Program-made: the position numbers and the translations under genes
Source of the DNA: a virus
Virus record (IMG/VR): IMGVR_UViG_3300025840_000104
Span: 1-36,038 of that record
Strand: one strand, 5' to 3'
DNA length: 36,038 bases
The notes under the pieces: generated by a model
The model's input: the letters and a program-made list of their open reading frames with translations, nothing else
The model's database searches: none
Told to the model about the DNA's origin: nothing
Part shown: one piece after another, positions 20,025 through 35,897 of the stretch
How positions within the stretch are numbered: position 1 is the stretch's first letter
Layout of the letters: every line of letters starts with the position of its first letter

Positions 20025-23000
20025 ATGGCGAGTACTAATAGTCGTAGAGGCTACACTCAAGGACTTCACGTTATAAAGTCTGGAGAAACTGCCAAACAAG
20101 TAGCTGACAAGTTTGATGTATCTGTGCGGGAGTTGCTTGAGTATAACAGTGCTGTCTTAGGTGATCGCTGGGATGCAGGTAAAGTTGTACGTGATCCTAA
20201 GCATAGAAAAAATACAGTTGAAGAAGCCATAGAGCTTGGTGCAACAGCAGAGCAGATTGGTCGCGCCCTAGGAATGTCTGTTGATGATGTAGTCTCTGAG
20301 TACAATGTATTGCGTGAGGATGAACTACAGGACATTCCAAAGCCTACTAAAAAACTTAAAGAAACTTTGAAAGAAATAGAAGTGCCTAAACGTTCAGGTA
20401 AAGTAGACGAGGTAAGAGTACCTAAGAGGTCTGGTCGCTTTGCTGATATTAAAGTACCTGAACGTGCTAAGAAAATAGTTCTTGAAGCGGTTGAGACACC
20501 TGAAAGATCAGGGCGTTTTGCTGAGATCAAAGTACCTGAGAGAGCTAAAAAGATACTACTTGAAGAAGTAGAAGTACCTAAACGTGCTGGTAGATTTCCT
20601 GAAGTAGCTGTTGATGCACAGCCTGTACCAACTGAACTGCTTCAGGAAGTAGAGACTCCTCGTCGTGCTGGTAAAGTAGATGAAGTCACTGTTCCACAAC
20701 GTACACAAAAGGAAGTACCCGCTCCGTACACAGACTATGAATCTACTTTACCTGATTTAGACCCTTCTATGTATAGAAAAGATGGTAGTCGTAAATCTAG
20801 TAGCGGTTATTTAGGGCCACAAAAAAATAAAGAAACCGGACAAACTATGACTGAGTACACCATAGGTGTGCAGATAGACGGTAAAGAAGTTGAAATACCT
20901 TCTATGGTTCCCGGTCTTACTGATAAAGAAATCGATGCAATAAGAAGCGGTAAGGTTCCAAACAGTGTTGCTGTTAAAGCAAAAGCCCATGCTGAAAAAA
21001 GAATAGCCGAAGGTAAAAGTCCGTTTTATCAAGACTTAGAAGAATACACAGACTATGAATCTGCAATGGATCAACGTCTTGCTGAAGTAACTACACCTAC
21101 TAGAAAGCCAGCAGAAACGCCAAAGCCTGAAGGTATTGTTATTCCTCAGTCTGCTATTGATATTATTAAGCCTCCTGCAAAAAAAAGAAAGACTGATGAT
21201 ATTGTCATACCTCAATCTGCCATTGATATTCGTAGAGAATTAGCTAACGAACAAGGTAAGCGTCTTGCCGCTCTTGTAACAGAAGCAGGAGAGGGTATTA
21301 CTCTTGGTTTGCTGGGAGAGATGAAAGCTGCAATAGAGTCTGCTACTACTGATAAAACATATGATAGGGCTAAGGCTGAGTATGAAGTAGCACGAGAGCA
21401 GTTTCGCAAAAACAATCCTGAGTTGGCACAGCTTGCTACGCCTGTTGAATTGATATCTACTTTACCTACAGGTATTGGTCTTGCTCGTGGCCTAGCTAAA
21501 GCAGGCGTTACGTCTATTGCAGCACAAGCAGGTATTGAGTCTTCTATCTACGGTGTTGCTACAGGTGAAGGGTTTGAAAACAGGTTGTTCCAAGGTATAG
21601 GTTACGGTGCATTAGGCGCTTTGACAGGAAAAGCCTTTGATAAAATACTAGACCCTTCCTTCACCAAACGTTTTAACACCATTGAAGAGTTCAACAAAGC
21701 CCGTGCTCAAGCGCAAGAAGAATTAGTTGTCGCTGCTAGGATGACTAGAGCGCCTGAAGATATAACTAATGCAGAGCTAGCTACTCAATTACTCATGCGA
21801 GAGATTGAGTTTCTTGGAGATGTTGTAGGTAGACAGGGCGCGTTACCTAAAGACTTAGCACCTTTTTATCAGCGCATGAAAGGGTACGCTGAAGACATGG
21901 GCGTGGACATTCGTCAGCTAAACAGAGTAGTACGCTCTGATAAAGCTATTAAAGATTTGCGTAAGACTTTAGATGAGCCTTTTGAAACTCTTGATGACAT
22001 GGCGCATCTACGTCAAGACTTATTAGACATGACTACTGGTCGGCTTGCTGCTGACGTAGGTCGTACTATCCCTGAAGCGCAGAAAGCTCTTGTTCGATTT
22101 AGGCGTTTAGCTTCTCCTCTTGCTACTCTTGCTGAAGATACAGTAGGCGTTGCTTTTTCACAGCGTCTTGTCAGGGCTATGAACAGGGTAACAAGGAAAC
22201 AAACTGAGCTTGATAATATGTGGAAAGGGATGGAACCGTTCCGCGAATTAGCATCTTCTAATCCTAAGTTTAACGATCTACTACTAGACGCAGTGAATCC
22301 ACGTTTGTCTTTAGAGTTTAAAGAAAAATCTTTGCAGGCTGCTATGAACTTAGCTAGGGCTAAAATAGGTAAAGGAGCACCTGAAAGACTGCAAAAGTTC
22401 TTTGATGACAACGTTGCATTTTCTAGTAGATACCGCAGACAGGTAACAGCGGGAGAAGTAACTCCTGTGTGGATGCACTCTGCTCCTGAATCAGTAATGA
22501 AAGATGCTTCTCTAAGGACTTATAGAGATAGAGCCGCAGTTAAAGCAGAGGATGCAGCCTCTAAGAATGTTCAACGTCCTTCAATGAAAGAGTGGAGAGC
22601 TACTAATGCTAAACGTCCTCCTGAAAAACAGCAGGAGTATGCAAACATTTTTGATTCACACTGGACATGGCAACGTCAGACTCTTACCAGAATGGAAATA
22701 GGTGAGCAACTTGGTTTTAGGACAGCAGGTAAACCACTTGTTGTAGGTAAAAACCTAGACCCTAAAGCTGTAAAGGAAGGTGCTAGTGAGTTAGAAGCTA
22801 CTGCGTCTTACGAGGCAGGTAAGTTCCGTTTGTTTGATGACAACATCATTGAAGAAGCCTTAAAGCGTGAGGGTTATTCTGACGTACAGATTAAGAATGC
22901 ACAACAAATTATTGATGACTTAGGTATTAACGCTAACAAAGGGATGGCGAGTGAGTTGGAGATTATTCGTAGTCTTGGCTACGTAGGTACTATTGCTAAT

Positions 23001-24011
23001 CCTTATGGCGCTTTGATGAACGTCCACGATTTGTTTAATGCTTCCTTTGAACTTGGTCTAGGCAACGTAATTAAAGCTGTGTTTGCTAAAGGCGGTGTTG
23101 AGTTTAGCCCTGCTGATATGGGACTAGCTCGTCAGGTGTTTGGTGAGTTTGTACGTAAGGCTCGTAAAGGAACTCAAAAAGATATAGACGCTCTTGGTGG
23201 TTATACTTCAGGTAATAGGTTTATTGAAGGTGCTGCTAAAGCCAGTGAAGACTTGCTTGAGTGGTCTATGAAGTGGTCTGGATTCTCTAAACTAGATCAG
23301 TTTGGTAAAAGTCGTATCATGGGTGCTTCTTTTAACAGAGCAAGACAAGACATAGCTGATGGTAGTTTTGATACTAAGTGGCAGTACAGTTTTAGTAAGC
23401 CTGAGATACAACAATTAAAGAAAGATATTGCTGATGGTGTTACAGACAGTGAGCTAGTACGTGATCTTGTTATGTTTGATCTGTTCAAGCTACAGCCTAT
23501 CAACGCTGCTGCACAAACGGCAGCAGGGTTAGCTACTCCTAATGCTCGTATTTTTTATATGTTAAAAGGTTTTGCAATCAAACAGTTTGATTTGATGGAG
23601 CGTAGGATATACAGAGAGTGGGAAGCTGGTAACAAGAAACAAGCACTAGAAAACTTAGCTAAGTACATTGTGTTGTCAGGTGGTGGTTATGGTGTAGTTA
23701 ACGAGGCTCGTCAAGTACTGAAGGGGGAGTCTCCTGACCCAGTAGAAGGCGCAGTGTCTGCTCTTTACCAAATAGGATCTGTTGTTACGTTTGGTGCTAT
23801 GGGCGCTAACGACTACGGTTATGATAAGTTTATGAATGATCCTTTAACTGCAATGTCTACTAATGTGTTGCCTCCACTGGGTGCTACTCTTCCCGGTGCA
23901 GTCTTAGAAGACATCGCCGATGCTTTTAGGAAAGGTGATCCTTTACCTGATGAAACAATCTTTGCTTTACCAATTGTAGGTAAAACACTCAAAGGAGTTT
24001 TTGACGAATGA
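20025..24011 (+). CDS. Giant internal virion protein with N-terminal LysM-like domain (gp16 position)
   Basis: 1328 residues, the largest protein here. Residues about 14-58 (LHVIKSGETAKQVADKFDVS, then VRELLEYNSAVLG) resemble a LysM peptidoglycan-binding domain. Residues about 119-230 are eight VP[KE]R[SA]G-type repeats. Residues about 241-340 are a module (DGSRKSSSGYLGPQKN...MVPGLTDKEIDAIRSGK...GKSPFYQD) bordered by a duplicated YTDYES. IVIPQSAIDI occurs twice near 370 and 390. The remainder is helical with Ala/Gly-rich hydrophobic patches (about 480-530) that could enter membranes. No transglycosylase active site was identified. It likely is ejected with DNA, like T7 gp16, and anchors to cell wall through LysM. 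Confidence 0.72.
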   Translation: MASTNSRRGYTQGLHVIKSGETAKQVADKFDVSVRELLEYNSAVLGDRWDAGKVVRDPKHRKNTVEEAIELGATAEQIGRALGMSVDDVVSEYNVLREDELQDIPKPTKKLKETLKEIEVPKRSGKVDEVRVPKRSGRFADIKVPERAKKIVLEAVETPERSGRFAEIKVPERAKKILLEEVEVPKRAGRFPEVAVDAQPVPTELLQEVETPRRAGKVDEVTVPQRTQKEVPAPYTDYESTLPDLDPSMYRKDGSRKSSSGYLGPQKNKETGQTMTEYTIGVQIDGKEVEIPSMVPGLTDKEIDAIRSGKVPNSVAVKAKAHAEKRIAEGKSPFYQDLEEYTDYESAMDQRLAEVTTPTRKPAETPKPEGIVIPQSAIDIIKPPAKKRKTDDIVIPQSAIDIRRELANEQGKRLAALVTEAGEGITLGLLGEMKAAIESATTDKTYDRAKAEYEVAREQFRKNNPELAQLATPVELISTLPTGIGLARGLAKAGVTSIAAQAGIESSIYGVATGEGFENRLFQGIGYGALGALTGKAFDKILDPSFTKRFNTIEEFNKARAQAQEELVVAARMTRAPEDITNAELATQLLMREIEFLGDVVGRQGALPKDLAPFYQRMKGYAEDMGVDIRQLNRVVRSDKAIKDLRKTLDEPFETLDDMAHLRQDLLDMTTGRLAADVGRTIPEAQKALVRFRRLASPLATLAEDTVGVAFSQRLVRAMNRVTRKQTELDNMWKGMEPFRELASSNPKFNDLLLDAVNPRLSLEFKEKSLQAAMNLARAKIGKGAPERLQKFFDDNVAFSSRYRRQVTAGEVTPVWMHSAPESVMKDASLRTYRDRAAVKAEDAASKNVQRPSMKEWRATNAKRPPEKQQEYANIFDSHWTWQRQTLTRMEIGEQLGFRTAGKPLVVGKNLDPKAVKEGASELEATASYEAGKFRLFDDNIIEEALKREGYSDVQIKNAQQIIDDLGINANKGMASELEIIRSLGYVGTIANPYGALMNVHDLFNASFELGLGNVIKAVFAKGGVEFSPADMGLARQVFGEFVRKARKGTQKDIDALGGYTSGNRFIEGAAKASEDLLEWSMKWSGFSKLDQFGKSRIMGASFNRARQDIADGSFDTKWQYSFSKPEIQQLKKDIADGVTDSELVRDLVMFDLFKLQPINAAAQTAAGLATPNARIFYMLKGFAIKQFDLMERRIYREWEAGNKKQALENLAKYIVLSGGGYGVVNEARQVLKGESPDPVEGAVSALYQIGSVVTFGAMGANDYGYDKFMNDPLTAMSTNVLPPLGATLPGAVLEDIADAFRKGDPLPDETIFALPIVGKTLKGVFDE
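20380..20715 (+). repeat. Tandem VP(K/E)R(S/A)G-coding repeats
   Basis: Eight imperfect units coding for (E/K)VP(K/E)R(S/A)(G/K)(K/R) separated by short alternating spacers (VDEV, FADI, KIVLEAVE, FAEI, KILLEEVE, FPEV and so on). DNA similarity is clearest between 20448-20500 and 20526-20590, where AAAGTACCTGA-type starts recur. They form a basic, Pro-containing, probably extended linker after the LysM-like domain. Confidence 0.75.
20727..21062 (+). repeat. 18-bp direct repeats bordering a 106-codon module
   Basis: TACACAGACTATGAATCT occurs exactly at 20727-20744 and 21045-21062, 318 bp apart (in frame). The segment between encodes a compact module (SSGYLGPQKNKETGQTMTEY to GKSPFYQD) unlike the flanking repeats. 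This is what a recombination-driven insertion or duplication would leave. Confidence 0.85.
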
Positions 24012-33394: not shown

Positions 33395-33589
33395 CTATTC
33401 ACACTGTTTGATAACTCTCCCCTTCTCACCGTGGTATTGCTCAACCTCCATGTCGAGCAAGCACAAGAACTTGTCTAGTTGACCTGACCGCTTGAGTTTC
33501 CACAGCGCCCTGCGTTCGATGTTGCGTACTGATTCACGCGAGATGCCCAACACCTCTGCTATCTGCGCGTGTGTCATACCGTCCCTCAT
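33395..33589 (-). CDS. Isolated sigma70 region-4-like helix-turn-helix protein
   Basis: 64 residues. The first 32, TH-AQIAEVLGISRESVRNIE followed by RRALWKLKR, match the sigma70 region 4.2 -35-binding helix-turn-helix almost residue for residue (cf. LTLEEIGKELGVTRERVRQIE, from memory). There is no region 2, so it cannot act as a full sigma. It may bind the beta flap or DNA and redirect host RNA polymerase, or act as a simple repressor. The ATG lies one base after the previous stop; GATGAGG is the ribosome site. The C-terminal half (LDKFLCLLDMEVEQYHGEKG) is unassigned. It precedes the replication promoter at 33361. Confidence 0.8.
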   Translation of the reverse strand: MRDGMTHAQIAEVLGISRESVRNIERRALWKLKRSGQLDKFLCLLDMEVEQYHGEKGRVIKQCE

Positions 33590-34991: not shown

Positions 34992-35585
34992 CTACTTAAC
35001 GTGCTCGACAATGACTGATGCCGTGTCGAACTTGTAGCACAACTGGCAGTCGATACACTTCTGCCCCGTGCAGTTTGCATCACCACGATACTTCTTGGTG
35101 ACGTTGTTGAACACACGATGAAAACCACGAGGTGGCTTACGCATCACGCGATCAATCTTGGGATTACTGTAAACAAGAATCATATTCTCAGGTACATGAT
35201 GCCTGTTGGGACGCACTATGTCAACTCGCTTAGTCCACAGCGCAAACGTACAGTGACCATTACTCTCTGCTATGTCACACAGATTGAGGAAGTGGGTGTC
35301 ATTGATTAACTCCCCGTGACCATGAAACCGCACGAATGCGGCGTTGATCTTGGGTATGTCAACCTCCCTATCACTACTAAGTATGTCACTATTACGCTGG
35401 AATGATGGTTGACAATTCTTACGATAGGTACTCAGCATCCGCTGGCTGTAACACATCGTACAAATGTTGTCCTTTCCACCACTCTTGTACTGCTTGACAC
35501 AGTACGGGTTCGTCGCTGTGTTGGTATTGATAGCAGGAATACCCGCTAACTTACCACTCATCTTGGATACACTAACTCTACTCAT
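34992..35585 (-). CDS. GP88-like cysteine-rich protein, possible Fe-S enzyme
   Basis: 197 residues from ATG 35585 (GGAGGAGGAC upstream; a longer frame to 35648 has no such site). The layout matches the phage GP88 family as I remember it: SKMSGKLAGIPAINTNTATN with NPYC (C29), ICTMCY (C42, C45), RNSDILS, a VRFHGHGEL segment (86-93), FALWTKR (115-120), ENMILVYSN, and a C-terminal C172-x4-C177-x2-C180-x2-C183 cluster. The C-x4-C-x2-C-x2-C cluster looks like an iron-sulphur site, and the strand-helix order resembles radical SAM-type barrels, though no CxxxCxxC is complete. The activity is unknown. It lies in the right-hand early cluster. Confidence 0.72.
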   Translation of the reverse strand: MSRVSVSKMSGKLAGIPAINTNTATNPYCVKQYKSGGKDNICTMCYSQRMLSTYRKNCQPSFQRNSDILSSDREVDIPKINAAFVRFHGHGELINDTHFLNLCDIAESNGHCTFALWTKRVDIVRPNRHHVPENMILVYSNPKIDRVMRKPPRGFHRVFNNVTKKYRGDANCTGQKCIDCQLCYKFDTASVIVEHVK

Positions 35586-35763
35586 ACAGTCTGTCCTCCT
35601 CCTCCCTAGATAAAACCATTGCATCAATATTATCAGGGCTACCCTCAATGATTAACTGCTGCATATTCAGGCAGTCCGTCTCCGTACCCCTGTACACAAT
35701 GGCAGTGCCAAGCCAGTGCTTGCTGGAATCCCAGACAAATACCCCGTAGTTTGTGAAGTCCAT
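35578..35763 (-). CDS. Hypothetical small protein
   Basis: 61 residues from ATG 35763 (TGATG overlap with the stop upstream; GGAGG four bases away). MDFTNYGVFVWDSSKHWLGT, then AIVYRGTETDCLNMQQLIIE: a beta-hairpin-like start and an acidic end (SREEEDRLYE). Nothing recognised. It overlaps the GP88-like gene by 8 bp. Confidence 0.6.
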   Translation of the reverse strand: MDFTNYGVFVWDSSKHWLGTAIVYRGTETDCLNMQQLIIEGSPDNIDAMVLSREEEDRLYE

Positions 35764-35897
35764 CACTCCTCCTCAGTTATCAGTATCCAATCGGACGGGT
35801 CTTCTTGCGCGTCGATCCACGCCCACGCTTCTTCGTTGCTGTTGAAGTACAGCACATCCTCAAACGAGATGGTAGCTGCGTTGAATACTCTTACCAT
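35763..35897 (-). CDS. Hypothetical 44-residue acidic protein
   Basis: ATG 35897 with GAGGAG about 9 bases upstream, 44 codons: MVRVFNAATISFEDVLYFNS then NEEAWAWIDAQEDPSDWILI. It is acidic and Trp-rich. The stop TGA overlaps the next ATG (TGATG). Small coupled gene of the right cluster, function unknown. Confidence 0.6.
   Translation of the reverse strand: MVRVFNAATISFEDVLYFNSNEEAWAWIDAQEDPSDWILITEEE

Follow-up and report, generated by a model that had tools for sequence, protein, structure and literature searches.

A seven-cysteine branch of the phage GP88 family, probably derived from radical SAM proteins

We analyzed a 197-residue protein encoded in a virus record of 36,038 bases, the whole of which is referred to here as the window, and consider it to be a radical-SAM-like enzyme, compact and diverged, within the GP88/DUF5131 superfamily and predicted to be active. 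This reading is drawn from sequence and fold comparison, and we assign it a probability of roughly 55%. The broader statement that the protein is a radical-SAM-derived Fe-S protein is probable on the same grounds, and binding of an Fe-S cluster is predicted with more certainty than S-adenosylmethionine (SAM) chemistry. The protein carries seven invariant cysteines, arranged as three plus four, in a confidently predicted alpha/beta fold, and profile comparisons establish homology between GP88 and DUF5131 as well as between DUF5131 and radical SAM proteins of the spore photoproduct lyase (SPL) type. With a radical SAM link, GP88, an unknown in genome browsers, could be addressed at the bench by a clear assay, and a gene that hundreds of phages carry would gain a testable function.

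The preliminary description of this DNA, which gave no strand for the gene, had reported ten cysteines and a set of short motifs, and all of these (NPYC, ICTMC, C-x4-C-x2-C-x2-C, SKMSGKLAGIPAINT, VRFHGHGE and LWTKR) are present in the translation of the minus-strand open reading frame (Table 1). Its ATG start codon, at 35585, is preceded at 8 nt by a ribosome site that, read by eye, is of the GGAGGAGGA type; the small open reading frame upstream has no Pfam match.

Table 1. Positions of the GP88-family gene, its upstream elements and the conserved motifs of its product within the window
Feature	Positions	Strand	Remarks
CDS, 197 aa, GP88-family seven-Cys protein	34992..35585	minus	Translation, Pfam GP88, dN/dS
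Ribosome-binding site GGAGGAGGAGGA, 8 nt before GP88 ATG	35594..35605	minus	By eye from sequence
62-aa open reading frame upstream of GP88	35578..35766	minus	Overlaps GP88 start by 8 bp
First Cys loop, C29-x12-C42-x2-C45, then invariant Y46	35451..35501	minus	144/144; CY aligns with DUF5131 CY
R86-F-H-G-H-G-E-L93, strand 2	35307..35330	minus	R86, G91, E92, L93 in 144/144
L116-W-T-K-R120, strand 3	35226..35240	minus	Matches DUF5131 LTKR in alignment
Y139-S-N-P142, end of strand 4	35160..35171	minus	S140 in 144/144; aligns with DUF5131 VSVE
C172-x4-C177-x2-C180-x2-C183-Y	35037..35072	minus	Four Cys and Y184 in 144/144

Relatives were gathered by scans of viral contigs together with database searches, yielding 57 diverse sequences and 144 unique sequences. 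Because C29, C42, C45, C172, C177, C180 and C183 are kept in all 144 and dN/dS is about 0.08-0.13 (against six relatives, with dS saturated for the most distant), the open reading frame is not a product of chance, and the sequence data indicate a real gene under strong selection. The other three cysteines vary, C58 being kept in 103, C103 in 80 and C112 in 62 of the 144 sequences, so that the count of ten overstates the functional set, which is seven. Also invariant throughout are N26, Y46, R86, G91, E92, L93, L116, K119, N134, S140, F155, F159, Y184 and E194. The first motif is of variable length, C-x9..15-C-x2-C-Y in nearly all relatives and with x12 in most, and the second reads C-x3..4-C-x2-C-x2-C.

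Membership in GP88 (PF17338), a family named from mycobacteriophage gene 88 and previously suspected from the cysteine pattern, was confirmed by profile search: the window protein scored 34.6 bits against the curated gathering cut-off of 24.4, in a match spanning only profile positions 46-164 of 230, and its relatives in CRP-5, Greip and vir526 likewise scored above the cut-off. All 57 diverse relatives matched GP88 (E up to 1; best 1.5e-10), and alignment of the seven-Cys profile to canonical GP88 with hhalign, for which all E-values given here are those of single pairs, yielded 1.3e-6. The two forms share the order of a Cys loop, an R-strand (G/T-x-x-D or G-E), a TK strand and an S strand, and are found at the same early position of related phage genomes. 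They differ in the cysteines: canonical GP88 has CX6CX3C (50 of 56 non-redundant proteins from the canonical search) and lacks the C-terminal four, whereas the window protein has C-x12-C-x2-C-Y and carries them. On this difference in sequence, the window protein is a distinct, seven-Cys branch of GP88.

The exact C-terminal four-Cys pattern was found in none of the 56 canonical-search proteins. Three divergent members of that set (L475, L476 and L477), however, end in C-x3-C-x2-C-x3-C, and a second four-Cys site is therefore not unique to the marine branch. These three come from genomes of the same phylum as the contig L122, mentioned below, and the first loops of L475 and L476 read C-x5-C-x9-C-Y; judged from sequence, they are a possible further branch of the superfamily. 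The seven-Cys branch is present in at least 490 IMG/VR contig stretches, and canonical GP88 in at least 235 mycobacteriophages plus several pelagiphages and roseophages. No published function for GP88 was found in the literature searched, and a term search of two cobavirus papers (PMC6918029, PMC6775973) gave no mention of the gene. GP88 genes 52-53% identical to those of marine phages also occur on three short contigs of Woesearchaeota or Bacteroidetes metagenome-assembled genomes (L122, L123, L124), which are probably viral contigs binned with these genomes. In Rhizobium phage RHEph21, the first gene (L483, 641-880), encoding 79 aa, matches only the Cys-loop part of GP88 and is a truncated copy or remnant.

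The family connects further to DUF5131 (PF07505), the phage Gp37/Gp68 family, which lies near the NCBI model TIGR04471, radical SAM mobile pair protein A. In hhalign comparisons, DUF5131 matched the seven-Cys branch at 3.2e-6, an alignment in which CY and TKR coincide, and canonical GP88 at 1.5e-5. Twenty-nine of the 57 relatives also matched DUF5131 (E up to 1; best 2.9e-5); the window protein itself gave no report at E up to 10 and fell short of the DUF5131 cut-off. When the GP88 model was searched against Bacteroidota genomes, 17 of the 20 places matched were DUF5131 proteins. Pairs among the seven-Cys, canonical GP88 and DUF5131 profiles scored 44-49, whereas profiles that had been reversed or column-shuffled did not exceed 24, and a TIM-barrel control (IGPS) gave E-values of 0.59-0.77 against GP88 and against DUF5131. 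Given the mutual profile matches and scores far above those of the controls, we regard the seven-Cys branch, canonical GP88 and DUF5131 as one superfamily at the sequence level. DUF5131 has CX6CX2C and a GGESG motif, and lacks the four-Cys group that the window protein carries.

The next link leads from DUF5131 to radical SAM proteins. Matches of DUF5131 proteins to the NCBI model for radical SAM mobile pair protein A ranged from 1e-12 to 2e-30, under that model's own cut-off. The DUF5131 profile aligned at 9.3e-5 with Bacteroidota radical SAM proteins of the SPL type, and the Cys motifs coincide in this alignment: WNPvtGC..GCkhCYAE falls on NPYRGCehGCvYCYAR, and NSMSDLF, LTKR and VSVE fall on SGVTDIY, ITKN and VSIT, respectively. 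The profile score for this pair was 41, against 25 or less for reversed and shuffled controls, and the SPL-type proteins in turn matched general radical SAM at 4.9e-13. An unrelated barrel pair, general radical SAM and IGPS, gave 1.6e-3, which sets the noise floor, so that the value of 9e-5 for DUF5131 and SPL is good without being overwhelming. The predicted structure of DUF5131 (pLDDT 93.2) has SPL as its best PDB match (E 3.3e-4, probability 1.00), with TM about 0.5 and rmsd up to 9.8; NifB and lipoyl synthase also rank high, among generic barrels. Judged from this model, the relative DUF5131 has a partial TIM barrel.

Direct comparison of GP88 with radical SAM proteins yielded no such signal. 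Pfam Radical_SAM did not match the window protein, hhalign placed GP88 at noise against both SPL-type (0.17) and general radical SAM profiles (0.25), and a mixed PF04055 profile was at noise as well. The window protein lacks CX3CX2C and has instead the three invariant cysteines, spaced mostly by x9 to x15 and then x2, and among the relatives the position before the last cysteine does not conserve an aromatic residue; variant Cys spacings occur in known radical SAM families. Sequence searches of the PDB, by the protein and by its 57-row profile, returned zero matches. The AlphaFold model of the GP88 protein is of high confidence (pLDDT 96.9, pTM 0.92), and Foldseek found no significant PDB match for it (best E 0.14), with radical SAM proteins absent from the top 50; among viral models, its matches were GP88 proteins from viruses of both archaea and bacteria, and Gp37/Gp68 matched weakly. 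Elsewhere, the window protein had only a 0.092 match in PHROGs, and in NCBIfam nothing above noise; the best NCBIfam match (0.028) aligned the four-Cys region with a ferredoxin-type subunit and was not counted as evidence. A match to the BpuJI_N nuclease (0.053) was rejected, being found in one member only.

The radical SAM assignment therefore rests on a transitive chain, in which each link is supported and none is direct: the window protein is tied to SPL and PF04055 through the fold and profile of DUF5131. The suggestion of a radical or Fe-S enzyme made in the preliminary description is upheld to the extent of this chain; the direct matches by profile and by fold that could have confirmed it did not appear, nor did a CX3CX2C motif. 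That the protein has an unrelated new fold, and resembles DUF5131 and radical SAM by convergence or as TIM barrels do in general, is very improbable: a confident model without a significant PDB neighbor would suit it, but the profile scores reach 47-49 where shuffled or reversed controls stay at 24 or below, the CY and TKR motifs are in register, and the curated GP88 cut-off is exceeded, all of which speaks against it. It is also quite unlikely that the protein, though descended from radical SAM proteins and still binding Fe-S, has lost SAM chemistry and serves to sense redox state, carry electrons or inhibit a host protein. Loosely kept canonical SAM motifs and direct profile matches at noise would agree with such a loss, and a phage early gene may equally be an inhibitor or an enzyme, but the strictness of E92, S140, K119 and R86 in all 144 sequences suggests that an active site has been kept.

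The model of the GP88 protein places a strand at residues 84-87, a helix, a strand at 113-118, another helix, and strands at 135-140, 157-162 and 191-195, an order compatible with a shortened barrel. Read as such a barrel, the protein would begin with a short first strand followed by the Cys loop 29-45, where we propose that the SAM-cleaving [4Fe-4S] cluster is bound. The strand at 84-87 would run into R-F-x-x-H-G-E-L, at the place where the SAM amino group is bound in radical SAM barrels, and by this inferred correspondence we propose that R86-L93 is the counterpart of both NSMSDLF in DUF5131 and the SAM-amine motif. The following two strands would end in WTKR and YSNP, respectively, and the four-Cys loop would lie between the strand at 157-162 and the last strand. 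As it exits the C-terminal end of the former, this loop should, in the model, share the barrel mouth with the first Cys loop; C172-C183 is proposed to be a second metal site, either an auxiliary [4Fe-4S] cluster or Zn.

A zinc protein, with Zn at one or both Cys groups stabilizing a small barrel-derived fold that carries out no radical chemistry and binds nucleic acid or a host protein, is unlikely. A CX4CX2CX2C group is able to bind Zn, a first spacing that tolerates mostly 9 to 15 residues is unusual for a catalytic radical SAM cluster, and the Foldseek search of the GP88 model found no radical SAM protein in the PDB. However, the pairing of three cysteines with a separate group of four is a typical Fe-S enzyme arrangement, exactly three cysteines are conserved at the radical SAM position in the homologous DUF5131, and R86, E92, K119, N134, S140 and E194 are also invariant, as in an enzyme.

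For the radical-SAM-like enzyme that we favor, we propose that C29, C42 and C45 would hold a [4Fe-4S] cluster at the mouth of the partial barrel, which would bind and reductively cleave SAM, with E92 and S140 helping to hold it and C172-C183 holding a second cluster beside the first; the resulting radical would then modify a substrate early in infection. Since the nearest solved fold acts on DNA, our guess by analogy is that the substrate is most likely a nucleic acid or nucleotide. We advance only tentatively, as a possibility with the odds against it, the fuller proposal that GP88 is a radical SAM family, immediate-early in unrelated phages, whose branch in the window has a second Fe-S cluster between strands 5 and 6. 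To our knowledge, no described radical SAM family has a second Fe-S cluster between these barrel strands.

Gene order confirms the early-cluster location described before, "early" being meant by gene position. The minus-strand arm of the window starts at the GP88 gene and continues with a sigma-70 region 4 mini-protein and a primase-helicase; it also includes a family A DNA polymerase, a 5'-3' exonuclease, endonuclease I, DUF3310 and a class II ribonucleotide reductase. The mini-protein (33395-33589, minus strand), which adjoins the primase-helicase, has 64 aa, barely more than the helix-turn-helix of region 4. On the plus strand, a 1328-aa open reading frame (20025-24011), with no Pfam match and weak PHROGs matches, probably encodes an internal virion protein. 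Identity to the counterparts in Roseobacter phage CRP-5, a cobavirus, is 58% for the reductase and 55% for the GP88 protein, and the DNA polymerase is closest to that of Pelagibacter phage HTVC103P (48%); by these identities, the source is a marine phage related to, and outside, the compared isolates. The suggested tie to a B12-dependent ribonucleotide reductase found no support, the relatives occurring in many other kinds of phages.

In the isolates HTVC120P, HTVC024P, Greip, Bylgja, CRP-143, CRP-5 and CRP-235, and likewise in mycobacteriophage Obama12 and the window, no sizeable gene, or almost none, precedes GP88 in its arm; in vir526, it is the 18th gene. A universal first-early-gene position was rejected, as an upstream same-strand open reading frame of at least 150 aa is present in 26 of 43 testable metagenomic loci. 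In the Pelagibacter phages Greip and HTVC024P, the flanks of the gene are homologous (49% for the small open reading frame before it, mostly 57-88% after it), and the shared slot holds the seven-Cys form in Greip (L046, 19995-20654) and canonical GP88 in HTVC024P (L479, 624-1394). The sequences identify this as displacement by a distant homologue, and replacement in the same slot suggests equivalent roles of both GP88 branches; the exchange offers a natural test of functional equivalence. Among 57 non-redundant loci, there is no constant partner gene, the commonest neighbors being a primase-helicase (15), a nuclease-like open reading frame, named by eye and without a Pfam match (14), a terminase small subunit (14) and DUF932 (11), the last near the seven-Cys GP88 gene, for example, at L149, 2665-3561.
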